Origin: Spirochaetota bacterium | GTDB taxonomy: Bacteria > Spirochaetota > UBA12135 > COTS27 > JAFLEE01 | Reading direction: 5' to 3' | Length of the DNA stretch: 50,335 nucleotides | Assembly: GCA_017302015.1 (NCBI GenBank) | Contig: JAFLEE010000031.1 | Location: 1-50,335, forward strand | Part shown: piece by piece, positions 28 to 6,636 of the stretch | Layout of the letters: the number at the start of each line of letters is the position of its first letter | How positions within the stretch are numbered: position 1 is the stretch's first letter | Made by a program: the position numbers and the translations under genes | Notes under the pieces: generated by a model | Seen by the model: only the letters and a program-made list of their open reading frames with translations | What the model was told of the DNA's origin: nothing | Databases searched by the model: none

Positions 28-1290
28 ATGAAGCGCGTGCTCATCGTCGACGACGAACCCAATATCCAGAAGGCGGTGCGCGCGGTGCTGACCGACGCCG
101 GCTACGAAGCCGTCTCCTGTGCGGACCCGACACGCGTCGAGGGCCTCGTCGCCACCGAACCATTCGACCTGGTCCTCCTCGATATCTGGATGCCGGCTCT
201 CGACGGCCATGCGGTCCTCAAGCAGGTGAAGGCGCGCCGTCCCGCCCTGCCTGTGATCATCATGAGCGGCCACGCAAGCGTCAGCACGGGGGTCGAAACC
301 GCCAAGAGCGGGGCCGAGGACTTCCTCGAGAAGCCCTTCTCCAGCGATCTCCTCCTCTCCAAGGTCCAGGGCGTCCTCGAGGGGTTCGAGGAACCCAGCG
401 GGCCGGGTACCAGCCGCAATCCCTTCCGTCAATTCAAGAAAGACTCCGGCCTTCGCCAGCGCACCCTCGCCAAAAGCGGCGTCCTCAAGGGGAAGGGGCT
501 CCATACCGGCGAGAATACGGGCATCATCCTCTCCCCCCTGCCCCCCGGCAGCGGCATCCTGTTCGAAGACATGCCCTCGGGCATGCGCACGCGCGCCCTT
601 GCACAGGCGGTCGATTCCACGGCCTACGCGACCATCCTCCGCATCGGCCCGGTGCAGGTCGTCTGCGTCGAGCACCTGCTCTCCACCCTCCACGCCTACG
701 GGGTCGACAACGCCGCGGTGAAGGTGAACAAAGAGATCCCCATCCTCGACGGCTCTTCCGCCCCGCTGTGCGCCTTCCTCGATGAACTCGGGGTCGTCGA
801 ACAAGATGCCCCCAAGCGGGCCGTCTACCTCGACCGCGCCGTCGAGTACGTCGACCCGAAAGACCCCACCCGCGTCATCCGCGCCGAGCCCTGCGACCGC
901 CTCGAGATCGATTATTTCCTCGAACTCCCCGACGCGTTCGGCGACCAGCGCGTCCAGATCGTCCTCCCTGCCGACCCCGTCGCCCGGGCCGCCGTCTACG
1001 CCAAAGAGGTCGCCCCCGCGCGCACCTTCGGCTTCCTCGAGGAACTCAAGGCGCTCCAGGCCGGCGGCCTGGGCCAGGGCGGCAATCTCGAGAATTTCCT
1101 TCTCCTCGACAAGGGCCGCCTCCTCAACACGAGTTTCCGCCTCGAGCACGAACTCGCCCGGCATAAGATCCTCGACATCATCGGCGATCTCTACCTCGCC
1201 GGCGGCGAGGTGCGAGCGCGCATCACCGCCCGCAAGACCGGGCACCGCCATAACGTGGCCCTGCTGCGGGCCCTCCTCGAGTCGCCCTGA
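28..1290 (+). CDS. lpxC: Receiver domain fused to LpxC deacetylase
   Basis: The C-terminal part is UDP-3-O-acyl-N-acetylglucosamine deacetylase, the zinc enzyme that commits precursor to lipid A in the cytoplasm. Counting from the ATG at 28 (420 aa), residues 1-120 are a response-regulator receiver: acidic pair D8/D9, phosphoacceptor D52 in LLDIWMP, S80 and K102 in EKPF. After a linker of about 25 residues, LpxC runs from about 145 to the end. It has E215-H216 in VEHLLSTL, T333 in ARTFGF, H379 and D383 in RHKILDIIGD, and H406 in KTGHRHN, so the zinc and catalytic residues are all present. Standalone LpxC is about 300 aa, so both halves look complete. The start at 28 puts KRVLIVDDE at the N-terminus and sits 7 bases after TATAAT; ATG at 19 is the alternative. 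The stop overlaps the recN start by one base. Phosphorylation control of LpxC is inference. Confidence 0.93.
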   Translation: MKRVLIVDDEPNIQKAVRAVLTDAGYEAVSCADPTRVEGLVATEPFDLVLLDIWMPALDGHAVLKQVKARRPALPVIIMSGHASVSTGVETAKSGAEDFLEKPFSSDLLLSKVQGVLEGFEEPSGPGTSRNPFRQFKKDSGLRQRTLAKSGVLKGKGLHTGENTGIILSPLPPGSGILFEDMPSGMRTRALAQAVDSTAYATILRIGPVQVVCVEHLLSTLHAYGVDNAAVKVNKEIPILDGSSAPLCAFLDELGVVEQDAPKRAVYLDRAVEYVDPKDPTRVIRAEPCDRLEIDYFLELPDAFGDQRVQIVLPADPVARAAVYAKEVAPARTFGFLEELKALQAGGLGQGGNLENFLLLDKGRLLNTSFRLEHELARHKILDIIGDLYLAGGEVRARITARKTGHRHNVALLRALLESP

Positions 1291-2975
1291 TGCTCGTCCA
1301 GATCTCCATCCAGAATTTCCTGTTCATCGAGGGCGCCAAGCTCGATTTCCATGCGGGCTTCAACGTGGTCACCGGCGAGACCGGGGCCGGCAAGAGCGTC
1401 TTCCTCGGCGCCCTCTCGGCCACCCTGGGCGAGAAACTCGGCGCCGACCGCATCATGCCCGGGAAGACCTTCGCCCGCGTCTCCAGCGTCTTCGATGTCC
1501 GAAAGCGCCCCGAAATCCTCGAACGCCTCGCCGCGCTGGGCATCGAAGCCGAAGACGGCCTCATCACCGTCCGCCGCGAGGTCGATCTGGAGGGCAAGGG
1601 AAAGTGCCTGCTCAATGACCAGATCGTCCGCATCGGCGCCCTCAAGGAGCTCGGCGAACTCCTCCTCGACCTCCACGGGCAGCACGACAACCAATTCCTC
1701 TTCCAGGTGCGCGAGCACGCAGCCCTCTTCGACCGGTTCGCCGGCCTCGAGGCCCAGGCCACGGAGTACCGGGCCTCCTGGAAAGATCTCTCCCGCCTCG
1801 TCGAAGAGAAGAAGGAACTCGAGAAGCGCGAGGCCGAGGTGCGCCGCGAAAAAGAGTTCCTCGAGTTCACCATCCGCGAACTCGGCGACCACCTGATCTC
1901 CGAGGACGAATACCAGAAGCTCCGCGACACCGTGCGCCAGCAGGCCGCCGCCGAAAAGTCCGGGCGCTTCCTGGCCAAGGCCGACGAGCAGCTCTCCCAG
2001 GCGCGCACCGCCCTGGGCGAGGCGATCAACCATTTCGTCGAACTCTCCAAACTCGACCCCGCCTTCGACCCCGGCCTCTCCAAACTCCGCGAGGCCGACG
2101 CCGCGGTGGAAGAGGCCGCCGACCTGGCCGCGGAGCGCCTCACCGGGGCCGAGACCGGGGTGGATGTCGACGCACTCCAGGCCCGGCTCTCCCGCACCGA
2201 ATCCCTCAAGAAGAAGTACGGCCTCGATTTCGAGGGCCTGCGCCTGCGCCTCGAGGAGGCCCGCGGCAAGCTCGCCTTCCTCGAGGATGTCGCCCTCCAG
2301 AAGGAGGATTGCCTCAAGGCCCTGCGCGCCCAAGCCGCCCGTACGGTGGCCGTCGCCGAGGCGCTGCGGGAAGCGCGGAAGAAGGCCGTACCCGCCTTCG
2401 AGAACGCGCTGCGGGGCGAGCTCGAGTTTCTCGGCATGAAGGGTTCGCGCCTCTCCTGCGCCTTCACCCCCAACCCCGCCGGGCTGACCCTCACCCACGA
2501 CGGTAAGAGCCACGTCCTCGACGACCGCGGCCTCGACGGCGCCGAGTTCGTCTTCGCCCCGGTGCGCGAGACCGCCACCCGCAAGCTGCGCGAGATCGCC
2601 TCCGGCGGCGAGATCAGCCGCATCATGCTCGCCTTCAAGAAGGTCCTGGGCGCCGACGTCCCCGCCCATACCCTGGTCTTCGACGAGATCGACGTGGGCA
2701 TCGGCGGGGAGACCGCCCTCAACGTGGGCCGCAAGATGGCCGAGATCGCCTCCACCCGGCAACTCATCGTCATCACCCACCTGCCCCAGATCGCCCGCTA
2801 CGCCGCCCGCCATTTCCGCGTGGCGCGCTCCATCGAAGACGCCGGGCGCACCCATACCCGCATCTCGCTCCTCGAGAACGACGACCGGCTCGCCGAGATC
2901 GCGCGCATGCTTTCCGGCAAGAGCGGCGACAGCGACCTGGCCTTCGCCAAAGACTTCATGGAAAATAAATCCTGA
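1290..2975 (+). CDS. recN: DNA repair ATPase RecN
   Basis: RecN is an SMC-like ATPase acting in recombinational repair of double-strand breaks. The 561-aa length is normal for the family. Walker A is GETGAGKS at residues 29-36. A long coiled-coil middle follows, rich in Glu, Lys and Arg. The C-terminal half has the ABC signature ASGGEISRIMLAFK, Walker B in TLVFDEIDVGIGG and the switch motif ITHLPQIA. The ATG overlaps the lpxC stop (TGATG), so translation is probably coupled and the two genes share a transcript. Pairing a lipid A enzyme with RecN has no clear functional logic and may just reflect shared housekeeping expression. Confidence 0.96.
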   Translation: MLVQISIQNFLFIEGAKLDFHAGFNVVTGETGAGKSVFLGALSATLGEKLGADRIMPGKTFARVSSVFDVRKRPEILERLAALGIEAEDGLITVRREVDLEGKGKCLLNDQIVRIGALKELGELLLDLHGQHDNQFLFQVREHAALFDRFAGLEAQATEYRASWKDLSRLVEEKKELEKREAEVRREKEFLEFTIRELGDHLISEDEYQKLRDTVRQQAAAEKSGRFLAKADEQLSQARTALGEAINHFVELSKLDPAFDPGLSKLREADAAVEEAADLAAERLTGAETGVDVDALQARLSRTESLKKKYGLDFEGLRLRLEEARGKLAFLEDVALQKEDCLKALRAQAARTVAVAEALREARKKAVPAFENALRGELEFLGMKGSRLSCAFTPNPAGLTLTHDGKSHVLDDRGLDGAEFVFAPVRETATRKLREIASGGEISRIMLAFKKVLGADVPAHTLVFDEIDVGIGGETALNVGRKMAEIASTRQLIVITHLPQIARYAARHFRVARSIEDAGRTHTRISLLENDDRLAEIARMLSGKSGDSDLAFAKDFMENKS

Positions 2976-3069
2976 CTTCGCCTTTCGATGCAACGGGCAT
3001 TCCGATGGGTGCCCCCTGTTTGGGATCGTCGATCAGAGACCGCTCACCGATTGATCCCATCGTCGGCGA

Positions 3070-3085
3070 ATGAAAACGATTTCAT
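3070..3085. promoter_or_regulatory. LacI/CcpA-type operator-like palindrome
   Basis: ATGAAAACGATTTCAT has 6-bp arms around ACGA and fits the cre-type consensus WTGNNARCGNWWWCAW at every position. It lies about 180 bases upstream of the first LamG lipoprotein gene, in a 288-base gap that otherwise shows no gene. LacI-family regulators bind sites of this kind. The binding protein here is unknown; the LacI gene at 20296 has a differently spelled operator in front of its own operon. Confidence 0.4.
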
Positions 3086-3263
3086 GCGCCGTGTGGGACG
3101 AGCATGAAAGCGAAACAGGAGATGGGTCCCTCCTAGAATAACCAAACAGCCGCAAGGCAACCACGCATTCAAATGACGAAAGATTTTTTTTGAGGTGCTT
3201 CACGATTGTTCACCATCGTACCCCGTAGTAGAGTCACCGCACAAATCTTTTCCAGGAGTTCCT

Positions 3264-4310
3264 ATGCGTCGTTTCATCGCCAGCGCCCTGGCCCTATCGG
3301 CCATCGCGTTTCTTTCCTCGTGTTCGCCTACCAGCAGTCCGCTACAGCCGAGCCTCACGGATACGGGCTCCGTTTCCTTGAATGTCTCGTTTTCGAAACC
3401 GAACGCCGCCATGGGCCTATCCAAGGCCCCCGCGAGCGACTTCACCACCGGCACGCTGACCCTCACGAAAGGCGCCACGGTCATTACGCAACCCCTCACA
3501 ATCGCAGGAGGCCATGCCCTCGCCACCATTTCCAACCTCGAGTCCGGGGTCTGGTCGGTGTCCGTGAAATTCTATAACGCCACTGCGGACCTGACCTATC
3601 AAGGGAATTCTACGGTCGTCGTCCAAAACGGCAAAACCACCGTGGTTTCCGTCACGGTCACCTCGACGGGCGGCACCGTCACCCTCGATTTCGAATTGCC
3701 CCTCGATTCCGCCCCCCCCGTGCTGTGGAACCGCATGGAAGGCGTCGCCAGCGAAGTCGGTCTGTCGCTGATTCCCTACGGAACGCCGACCTATTCCGCC
3801 AGCCTCTATGGAAATGGACTCGATTGCCTTGCGAATACCGGATATCTCGACATCCCTGCCGCCGCCCTTCTCCTTGACAAAGGCACGGTGGAGTTCTGGT
3901 TCACCCCGAATTGGTCCGCGCCCCAGGATGGGGGCCGGCATGAATTGATTTGCTCCGTCAACAACCCCAATGGCCTTCGACTCGTTTACTACGACAATGG
4001 GAATGCTTACTTCTCGGTCTGGAACGATAACTATCCCATGGATCAATCTCTCATGCCATTGACATTAGGCACGCCCGCTCATTTCGCCCTGGTTTGGGAT
4101 CGGAATGGAATCGCAGGCTCCCCCGATACCGCTCGACTCTATTTAAACGGCGCCTTGGTCGGCAGCAATAGCCAAGCCCTCAACTCGAGCTCGATAAATG
4201 AAGATGTGCGAATCGGTACCGATGGCACGTCTCATTCCATGGGTGTATTTGACAACCTCAAAGTATACGATTTCGCCAAATTAGACTTCGGCGACCGTTT
4301 CGTTGAATAA
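3264..4310 (+). CDS. LamG-domain lipoprotein, copy 1
   Basis: This is a predicted surface or periplasmic lipoprotein of 348 aa. The N-terminus MRRFIASALALSAIAFLSSC has a basic n-region, a hydrophobic stretch and lipobox LSSC. Residues about 35-135 form a beta-rich domain (ending TVTSTGGTVTLDFELP). The C-terminal 190 residues look like a LamG/concanavalin-A-type jelly roll, with GTVEFWFTPNW, HFALVWDRNG and ARLYLNGALVGSNSQ. The ATG at 3264 is chosen for the signal peptide and the upstream CCAGGAG; an in-frame start further upstream would bury the signal sequence. It is a paralogue of the next gene and has the same length. Binding of a glycan or of another cell is plausible but not shown. Confidence 0.85.
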   Translation: MRRFIASALALSAIAFLSSCSPTSSPLQPSLTDTGSVSLNVSFSKPNAAMGLSKAPASDFTTGTLTLTKGATVITQPLTIAGGHALATISNLESGVWSVSVKFYNATADLTYQGNSTVVVQNGKTTVVSVTVTSTGGTVTLDFELPLDSAPPVLWNRMEGVASEVGLSLIPYGTPTYSASLYGNGLDCLANTGYLDIPAAALLLDKGTVEFWFTPNWSAPQDGGRHELICSVNNPNGLRLVYYDNGNAYFSVWNDNYPMDQSLMPLTLGTPAHFALVWDRNGIAGSPDTARLYLNGALVGSNSQALNSSSINEDVRIGTDGTSHSMGVFDNLKVYDFAKLDFGDRFVE

Positions 4311-4330
4311 ATAGCACCCCTGTGCCTTCG

Positions 4331-4358
4331 CGCAACCCCGCCCCTTGGCGGGGTTGCG
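4331..4358 (+). terminator. Strong hairpin after LamG lipoprotein 1
   Basis: A perfect 12-bp stem (CGCAACCCCGCC and its complement) with a 4-base loop CCTT begins 20 bases after the stop codon. The following ATCATTCTCC is only weakly T-rich, so it is a good hairpin with a poor U-tract. It separates the two paralogous lipoprotein genes. Confidence 0.75.
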
Positions 4359-4448
4359 ATCATTCTCCTCCCTGATCATCAAAAAGGGTCATGGCCTCCC
4401 CGTGACACCCGATCGGCTCTACATCCTTGACCTCCACGGAGTCATTTT

Positions 4449-5495
4449 ATGCGTCTTTCCCTCCCGAGTCTCCTCTCTTTAGCGGCCTTCGCGCTCCTCG
4501 CCTCGTGCAGCCAAACGACGAGCTCGCTTCAACCTGATTCGACGGGAGGGAGCGCTCTTTCGCTTAAGATCACATTTACGAAAGCCTCCGCGGCCCCCGG
4601 GCGGGCCCCCGCGACCGACTTCGTGACCGGCGCCGTGACCTTGAAAAAAGGCGCGGTGACGCGCGTGGAACCCGTGTTGGTCGCCGGTTCCCACGCTTCA
4701 GCGGCCATTTCTTCGCTGGAAGCCGGGGTATGGGCGGTCTCCTTGGAATTCATGAATACCTCCGGAATCATCACCCATACCGGGTCGACCACCGCCACCC
4801 TCCAAAACGGCCAAACACTGGCCCTGTCCCTCACCGTCAATGCGGTCACGGGGAGCCTCTCCCTGGATTCGGATCTGCCCATTGACGTTTTCCCTCCCAC
4901 CCTTTGGAATCGCATGGAAAGCGAAATCAGCGAGGTAGGCTTGCCGCTACTGGTCATCGGCACCCCGAGTTACATGCCCGGCTTATTTGGGAACGGTCTC
5001 TCTCCGACGCCGGTTGGAGATCTCACCATCCCCGCCGCGGCATTCGACCTCGATAAAGGCGCCCTGGAATTCTGGTACACCCCGAATTGGTCCACGCCCA
5101 ATTCGTATTACCACGAGATCCTGCGTTCAGAGGGCTCCTATGATGATATACGCCTCGTCTACTATGATCTGACTCGCGTCTATATTTCTGCTTGGAACGG
5201 ATATTGTCCCGGCCCGGCGGCCAACATGCCGATGAGGGCCGGGCAACCGAATCATTTCGCCCTCGTCTGGAACCGTCTCGGCATCAATGGAAGCGCCGAT
5301 ATCGCGCGCCTTTACTTCAACGGGACCCTCGTGATGAGCAATAGCCAACCCATCATTTCATACGCTCCGAAAAATGTGCGATTCATGGAATTTTCCTACA
5401 CGAATCCGGAGGCGAGCGCCTTTGGGGGGGTGATCGACAATCTGAAGATCTACAACTATTCCAAAATTGATTTCAGCGATCGTTCTCTCGAATAG
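4449..5495 (+). CDS. LamG-domain lipoprotein, copy 2
   Basis: This 348-aa paralogue of the preceding gene has the same architecture. The signal peptide is MRLSLPSLLSLAAFALLASC with lipobox LASC. A beta-rich domain follows (VTGAVTLKKGAVTRVEPVLVAG), then a LamG-like domain with GALEFWYTPNW, HFALVWNRLG and ARLYFNGTLVMSNSQ. The start is supported by CGGAG 8-12 bases upstream. Sequence divergence from copy 1 is spread along the whole length, so the duplication is not recent. Each copy has its own hairpin terminator, so they may be expressed separately. Function is unknown beyond a likely adhesive or carbohydrate-binding role. Confidence 0.85.
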   Translation: MRLSLPSLLSLAAFALLASCSQTTSSLQPDSTGGSALSLKITFTKASAAPGRAPATDFVTGAVTLKKGAVTRVEPVLVAGSHASAAISSLEAGVWAVSLEFMNTSGIITHTGSTTATLQNGQTLALSLTVNAVTGSLSLDSDLPIDVFPPTLWNRMESEISEVGLPLLVIGTPSYMPGLFGNGLSPTPVGDLTIPAAAFDLDKGALEFWYTPNWSTPNSYYHEILRSEGSYDDIRLVYYDLTRVYISAWNGYCPGPAANMPMRAGQPNHFALVWNRLGINGSADIARLYFNGTLVMSNSQPIISYAPKNVRFMEFSYTNPEASAFGGVIDNLKIYNYSKIDFSDRSLE

Positions 5496-5509
5496 AGGAT
5501 GCCCATGGA

Positions 5510-5545
5510 GGCCAAGAAACCCGGCCTCGGGCGGGTTTCTTGGCC
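5510..5545 (+). terminator. Strong hairpin after LamG lipoprotein 2
   Basis: A perfect 13-bp stem (GGCCAAGAAACCC and its complement) with a 10-base loop starts 14 bases after the stop codon. It is followed by GTGTTCTCC, so the U-tract is weak, as for the hairpin after copy 1. Confidence 0.75.
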
Positions 5546-5629
5546 GTGTTCTCCCCGGACATCGCGGGATTCTGGTTTTCACAGGGGAACGCGGGGGGGG
5601 AAATAGCCTCTAAACCCAAATTCAAGCGC

Positions 5630-5658
5630 TTTACTTTCCCTTCTCCGACCGCTAAAAT
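5630..5658 (+). promoter_or_regulatory. Candidate sigma-70 promoter of trxB
   Basis: TTTACT (5630-5635) and TAAAAT (5653-5658) are separated by 17 bases, and the trxB ATG is 30 bases downstream of the -10 box. The stretch is more AT-rich than its surroundings. Confidence 0.55.
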
Positions 5659-5688
5659 CTCCTGCGCCTGCATCCCTCGGAGACTCCC

Positions 5689-6636
5689 ATGGCTGAGATC
5701 GAAAACGTCGTCATCATCGGCTCCGGCCCCGCCGGGCACACCGCCGGCATCTACGCCGCCCGGGCCAACCTGAAGCCGGTCCTCTTCGAGGGCCTCATGG
5801 CGGCCGGCGTCGCGGCGGGCGGGCAGCTCACCACCACCACCGAGATCGAGAATTTCCCCGGCTTCCCCAAGGGCATCTCCGGGCCCCAACTCATGGAGAA
5901 CATGCGCAAGCAATCCGAGCATAACGGCGTGCGCATCCTCACCGAGACGGTCACTGAGGTCGAATTGGGGGCGCGGCCCTTCAAGATCCACGCCGACAGC
6001 GGCGAGGTCCTGGCGCGCACCCTCATCATCGCCACGGGCGCCACCGCCAAGCGCATGAACGTCCCCAGCGAACCCAAGTTCTGGCAGCGGGGCATCAGCG
6101 CCTGCGCCGTCTGCGACGGGGCGCTCCCGATCTTCCGCAACGCCGTGGTCGCCGTCATCGGCGGCGGCGACACCGCCATGGAAGAGGCCACCCACCTGAC
6201 CAAGTTCGCCTCCCAAGTGCTCGTCATCCACCGCCGCGACACGCTGCGGGCCAGCAAGGCCATGCAAGAGAGGGCCCTGGCCAACCCGAAACTGAAGTTC
6301 GTCTGGAACACCGCGCTCCTCGACGTCGCGGGCGATACCCAACTGCGCAAGCTCCTGGTCCAGAACCTGAAGACCGGCGAAAAGAGCGAGCTCGTCGTCG
6401 GCGGCCTCTTCTACGCCATCGGGCACGAACCCAACACGGCCTTCCTCGGGGGCCAACTCAAGACCGACGAAACAGGCTATCTTCTCACCAAGCCCGGCAC
6501 CACCCAGACTTCGGTCCCCGGGGTCTTCGCCGCCGGCGATGTGCAAGACCACGTCTTCCGCCAGGCCATCACGAGCGCGGGCACCGGCTGCATGGCCGCC
6601 CTCGAAGCCGAGAAATTCCTCGTCGAAAATCCCTGA
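5689..6636 (+). CDS. trxB: Thioredoxin reductase
   Basis: TrxB is an FAD enzyme that passes electrons from NADPH to thioredoxin in the cytoplasm. The protein has 315 aa, normal for the low-molecular-weight type. The FAD motif is [10 protein letters not shown] at 11-20. The redox-active pair is C139-A-V-C142 followed by DG. The NADPH-binding motif is [12 protein letters not shown] near 157-167. The C-terminal FAD motif is [15 protein letters not shown]. Every signature residue is present. It has its own candidate promoter, and the downstream gene is convergent, so it is probably monocistronic. Confidence 0.96.

Follow-up and report, generated by a model that had tools for sequence, protein, structure and literature searches.

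How could a receiver domain come to be joined to LpxC, the deacetylase of the committed step of lipid A synthesis, and what would it do there? This question is raised by the gene at positions 28 to 1290 of a 50,335-nucleotide stretch of DNA from a Spirochaetota bacterium (assembly GCA_017302015.1, contig JAFLEE010000031.1, here C91), which we refer to as the window. An earlier reading of the letters alone (the sequence-only reading) had placed a complete receiver and a complete LpxC in one frame there. The results presented below show that this gene is one of many receiver-LpxC fusions of two phyla that form a single LpxC clade. The interpretation that we favour, to which we give a probability of about three in four, is that they belong to a rewired NtrYX system: the receiver would stem from NtrX, and an NtrY-type kinase would phosphorylate D52 and thereby control the activity or the availability of LpxC.

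A receiver and LpxC in one reading frame

The gene is a single uninterrupted frame of 420 codons on the forward strand. An ATG at position 19 would give a protein of 423 aa and, because the window begins at base 1 of the contig and the frame is open to there, translation may start earlier still. In agreement with the sequence-only reading, Pfam models matched both domains near their full length. NtrX was the best receiver match among the NCBIfam models (5e-27), and the TIGR00325 (lpxC) model scored 201.9 bits (cut-off 187.25). The LpxC domain also matched solved LpxC structures, down to 9e-44, and when the predicted structure was used in a Foldseek search the best match was the LpxC structure 6mae (7e-21). 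Both folds are recognisable in the AlphaFold model, which was built from 7 sequences and has a mean pLDDT of 64. The receiver contains the full set of residues (D52, the D8/D9 pair, S80 and K102), as does LpxC (E215, H216, H379, K380, D383 and H406); those named earlier from the letters alone, which are all of these except D8/D9, S80 and K380, had been identified correctly. Neither an AAA+ domain nor a DNA-binding helix-turn-helix (HTH) was detected in the protein by the Pfam search. Judged by its sequence, the protein is NtrX-derived and is not itself an NtrX, and the gene encodes a response regulator that has LpxC, with predicted deacetylase activity, as its output domain. The fusion is the sole LpxC in the 5.4-Mb genome, and lpxB, another lipid A gene, was found in 13 of 13 fusion genomes tested.

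Distribution and descent of the fused proteins

A search for relatives, which the sequence-only reading had proposed together with their placement on a phylogeny, yielded 79 distinct receiver-LpxC proteins across two phyla. Within the Spirochaetota the fusion is present in 35 of the 94 genomes having an LpxC match (threshold E 1e-30; G003 is included, as is G150, in which a contig end cuts the fusion). The carriers are G001 and G002 of the same order, G003 of the same class, every sampled member of family f12, and G146 and G162 of family f43. Among the genomes tested, only those of f12 contain the variable surface protein family of Serpulina, and we conclude from these sequence matches that f12 is the Brachyspiraceae. 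In the second phylum (Binatota/'Deltaproteobacteria') 45 of 182 LpxC-bearing genomes contain the fusion, 19 as full-length matches and 26 as LpxC located in a long frame; all have the receiver, which is damaged in L174 and L219. Full-length fusions were seen in records titled 'Deltaproteobacteria' and 'Candidatus Binataceae', the latter being a family that NCBI puts in the Binatota.

These numbers bear on the possibility that assembly or gene calling has joined two neighbouring genes. The window does begin at a contig end, and the halves of the G003 gene are separated, though solely by the NN bases that mark a gap in the assembly within the linker. The same architecture is however repeated in about 80 independent genes of two phyla, including those of the single-contig genomes G002, G117 and G135. 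A frameshift at the junction, which the sequence-only reading had named as the finding that would split the gene in two, as well as a chimera or neighbouring genes run together, is therefore rejected, and we regard the probability of an artefact as negligible.

Residues D8, D9, D52, K102, E215, H216, H379, K380, D383 and H406 are invariant in the 79 fusions, barring gaps and one frame-damaged copy, and receiver position 80 is S or T throughout. The length of the linker varies from 22 to 64 residues across the receiver-LpxC fusions. The coordinates of the features in the window are given in Table 1.

Table 1. Features of the receiver-LpxC gene and the adjoining gene in the window, with counts of conservation among the aligned fused proteins
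Feature	Positions	Strand	Remarks
Receiver-LpxC fusion gene	28..1290	+	420 aa; possible earlier in-frame ATG at 19
NtrX-type receiver domain, residues 4-113	37..366	+	PF00072 (Response_reg) 97.5 bits, E 7e-28; near full profile length
D8 and D9 codons, Mg-binding acidic pair	49..54	+	79/79 aligned
D52 codon, predicted phosphoacceptor	181..183	+	D in 79/80 aligned receivers; exception is the frame-damaged open reading frame (ORF) L219
K102 codon, conserved receiver lysine	331..333	+	80/80
Flexible linker, residues 119-141	382..450	+	pLDDT <50 at residues 121-138
LpxC deacetylase domain, residues 144-417	457..1278	+	PF03331 240.5 bits (cut-off 27), E 3e-71; near full profile length
E215 and H216 codons, catalytic Glu and zinc-ligand His of LpxC	670..675	+	80/80
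HKxxD motif, H379 to D383, zinc ligands	1162..1176	+	79/79 aligned
H406 codon, catalytic His of TGH motif	1243..1245	+	79/79 aligned
RecN-like SMC-family gene	1290..2975	+	ATG shares one base with the fusion stop (TGATG)

In a tree of LpxC domains (59 rows) a single branch (SH-aLRT 99) separates all fused proteins from the others. The branch between fused and standalone enzymes was also obtained in a more careful tree of 36 rows, with a support of 100/99, and was present in 200 of 200 bootstrap trees. No standalone LpxC falls inside the fused clade in either tree, and the standalone LpxC proteins of other Spirochaetota are placed far from it, which indicates either that the gene passed from one phylum to the other or that the sequences parted long ago. 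The receivers of the fusions together with those of NtrX are set apart from the other sampled receivers (SH-aLRT 91), in a tree that is based on 116 columns and is weakly resolved.

Ten proteins of the second phylum, about 700-820 aa long, have the order receiver-AAA+-LpxC and are referred to as NtrX-LpxC (INTERMEDIATES). In L180 the NtrX model matches residues 15-464 with 354.7 bits and the lpxC model scores 231 bits; HTH_8 was not detected in this protein by Pfam. The NtrX-LpxC proteins have no proper GAFTGA loop, other residues or a deletion being found in its place; their Walker B acidic pair is for the most part gone and their HTH recognition helix departs from the Fis consensus, whereas the residues of receiver and LpxC are intact. 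A stop codon interrupts the receiver of the NtrX-LpxC gene L174 at positions 3372-3376 (G503), either naturally or as a result of assembly. The NtrX-LpxC proteins are nested within the fused clade, scattered rather than as one group. This suggests, as far as sequences can order such events, that NtrX-LpxC came first and that the middle part was subsequently lost more than once; its repeated gain within the fused clade is less likely.

The decay of the middle part is also relevant to the idea that the receiver is a non-signalling relic of NtrX, or a mere structural or solubility module. Fusions may persist neutrally, and the kinases of the orphan group described below have long branches, both of which would favour a relic. 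Those kinases nevertheless retain their H-box, N-box and G-boxes, and while the AAA+ and HTH motifs decayed in NtrX-LpxC, 79 proteins from the two phyla preserved D8, D9, D52, S/T80 and K102. We therefore consider a relic improbable.

An NtrY-type kinase as candidate partner

A kinase gene is located immediately upstream of the fusion, on the same strand, in L002, L003, L005-L007, L154-L160, L163 and L167, all of the second phylum; the one of L002 encodes NtrY_N, HAMP, PAS, HisKA and HATPase domains. L209 and L240, both of them NtrX-LpxC genes, likewise have a kinase gene directly upstream. The counterpart kinase of the Spirochaetota has about 600 aa. In 12 Spirochaetota genomes with a standalone LpxC (G006, G007, G011, G016, G026, G027, G029, G030, G034, G039, G040 and G136) its gene directly adjoins that of an NtrX-type regulator, and in G007, G030 and G040 the kinase scores above the cut-off of the Leptospira kinase family HK_LIC11548. 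This match and the Serpulina family in f12 both indicate that the phylum is Spirochaetota. In the 13 fusion-bearing Spirochaetota examined, by contrast, no regulator gene was found beside the NtrY-clade kinase within the fetched stretch (0 of 13); in G043 there is just a receiver-like ORF of 137 aa, a weak one on the opposite strand, and the contig of G003 leaves just 0.8 kb downstream of the kinase. In a kinase tree the NtrX-paired kinases, those adjacent to receiver-LpxC genes and the orphans group together versus other kinases (97/99). All of them share an H-box of the kind HEIKNPLTPI, with the pattern AHE[IV][KR]NPL[TM]P.

The candidate in the genome of the window, C89:32386-34029, is such an orphan, unlinked to the fusion. 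HK_LIC11548 matches it over positions 39-589 with 141.6 bits, compared with 101 for the next kinase, which was matched in its core only. Two other kinases that had been taken into account, a second one of G002 (C1:2316033) and one of G162 that lies 2.8 kb upstream of the fusion and combines several PAS domains with a solute-binding one (L106 3040-6201), fall outside the NtrY clade in the kinase tree and were rejected.

That the kinases of fusion genomes are orphans also bears on a scheme in which LpxC is the sensor, so that its occupancy by UDP-acyl-GlcNAc would alter the phosphorylation of the receiver and feed back on the kinase or on other regulators. Such a scheme needs a second partner for the kinase, and since none other was seen linked to the kinase of fusion genomes, within the stretches fetched, it is very improbable.

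The flanks of the fusion in the Spirochaetota contain no NtrY-type kinase gene; a sigma factor gene and a radical SAM gene are located there in the Brachyspiraceae, and recN in the genomes of the window's own order. The order fusion-recN is retained in both same-order genomes, G001 and G002, and the TGATG overlap suggests that the two genes are probably translationally coupled. Further downstream in the window, on the + strand, are a tandem pair of paralogous lipoprotein-like genes (3195-5495; 371 and 348 aa) and a gene for a thioredoxin-reductase-like pyridine nucleotide-disulphide oxidoreductase (5689-6636).

Proposed control of LpxC by a rewired NtrYX system

The same signalling family already governs lpxC at the gene level elsewhere. 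Loss of NtrYX in R. sphaeroides raises lpxC mRNA 8.8-fold and lipopolysaccharide about twofold (PMC7240162), NtrYX represses lpxC in Caulobacter (PMC12444477), and lpxC is the only target of the D. vulgaris response regulator DVU2934 (PMC3333781). The lpxC gene of S. fumaroxidans adjoins a regulator operon (PMC3333781); a similar neighbourhood was observed in L225 (G532; 1726-6221), where a standalone lpxC lies directly downstream of receiver, receiver-kinase and AAA+ genes on the same strand. The systems of R. sphaeroides and Caulobacter share with the one proposed here an NtrX-type receiver, an NtrY-type kinase and a link to lpxC and envelope composition, but the known NtrX is a DNA-binding AAA+ protein that acts on lpxC by transcription (indirectly in R. 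sphaeroides), whereas here the output is the enzyme itself. Likewise, DVU2934 is dedicated to lpxC, but as a separate protein acting on a promoter.

Based on the sequences, we propose the following course of events. NtrX and LpxC would have been joined into one protein, whose AAA+/DNA-binding part would have lost its motifs and later have been removed to leave receiver-linker-LpxC. The NtrY-type membrane kinase, most likely C89:32386-34029 in the genome of the window, would phosphorylate D52, and the phosphorylated receiver would alter the activity or the availability of LpxC, most simply through phosphorylation-dependent dimerisation or through domain contacts across the flexible linker. With a kinase that would sense the envelope, the state of the envelope would set lipid A flux with neither transcription nor protein breakdown in between. 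Because NtrYX represses lpxC in other bacteria, phosphorylation may, by analogy, restrain LpxC.

The C-terminus of LpxC provides another indication. In 59 fused proteins 1-10 residues (median 3) follow the LpxC core, and the protein of the window ends 1 residue past it; the median is 29 in 44 standalone enzymes, some of which are also short-tailed. Since the comparison is between clades, this difference counts as one event. The tail of E. coli LpxC carries the degron for FtsH (PMC12444477). In E. coli, too, lipid A synthesis is controlled at LpxC, on which FtsH, LapB and PbgA/YejM act, but there the enzyme is degraded by way of this degron, whereas the fused forms have a receiver and no such tail. 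The earlier statement that the amount of LpxC is set by proteolysis in known diderms needs to be narrowed, such control having been demonstrated mainly in enterobacteria (PMC12444477).

These observations touch the closest alternative, in which the receiver sets the amount or the place of LpxC rather than catalysis, by exposing it to or hiding it from a protease (FtsH, Lon) or by tethering it to the membrane kinase. LpxC is controlled largely by proteolysis or localisation elsewhere (PMC12444477), and a linker this long and flexible would serve for tethering or for switching degradation no less than for allostery. It is, however, the tail bearing the degron in E. coli that is missing in every fused LpxC, and no protease adaptor was found. 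A search for the LapB zinc ribbon could not tell LapB from RadA, which shares that domain; its one strong match per genome has the length expected for RadA. This alternative appears unlikely to us, though less so than the relic.

Several observations weigh against the rewired NtrYX system. The window's four receivers are placed just outside the main NtrX set, in the tree of only 116 columns, and the AlphaFold model is too weak for a reliable interface between receiver and LpxC. Some genomes of the second phylum have no adjacent kinase. G005 has a standalone LpxC and yet an orphan HK_LIC11548-type kinase (L281 1887-3593), the sole exception of this kind, and the long-branch kinase of G020, which belongs to the orphan group, pairs with a regulator. 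In addition, because the fused LpxC proteins are one clade, the orphan kinases, the tail loss and the conserved residues are not independent events. On the other side, the conserved phosphorylation site, the upstream or orphan NtrY-type kinase, the NtrX-LpxC intermediates and the missing tail together argue for the direct two-component link to lipid A commitment that the sequence-only reading had put forward.

Enzymes as outputs of response regulators are not new. Proteins of the CheB, PleD and RpfG types consist of a receiver joined to a catalytic domain; their targets are signalling proteins or second messengers, whereas the output here would be a core biosynthetic enzyme. LpxC as an output was not described in the open-access papers searched, two recent reviews included, in line with what the sequence-only reading had said of such a mechanism, and it appears to be new. 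Databases may well contain proteins built in this way that have gone unnoticed. Contrary to the earlier assertion, LpxC is not always standalone in known diderms: LpxC-FabZ fusions have been described (PMC3087551), although the partner there is a C-terminal fatty-acid enzyme and not a signalling domain. L187 and L189 encode an LpxC carrying a C-terminal FabZ-like extension, apparently this known fusion.

Endotoxin synthesis is controlled at LpxC, which is also a target for antibiotics, and little is known of how the enzyme is regulated in bacteria other than enterobacteria. Because the signalling domain is located within the enzyme and the likely kinase is named, two purified proteins would suffice for a direct test of how these bacteria control lipid A synthesis; Brachyspira is culturable and contains the fusion in every sampled genome. 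The NtrX-LpxC proteins with their decayed activator domains record the change from a transcription factor to a regulator of an enzyme. We lean, by a modest degree, towards the broader view that a transcription factor governing lpxC became a covalent controller of LpxC via these preserved intermediates, and that Brachyspira and parts of the second phylum would control lipid A synthesis mainly through this phosphorelay, in place of control based on a degron.
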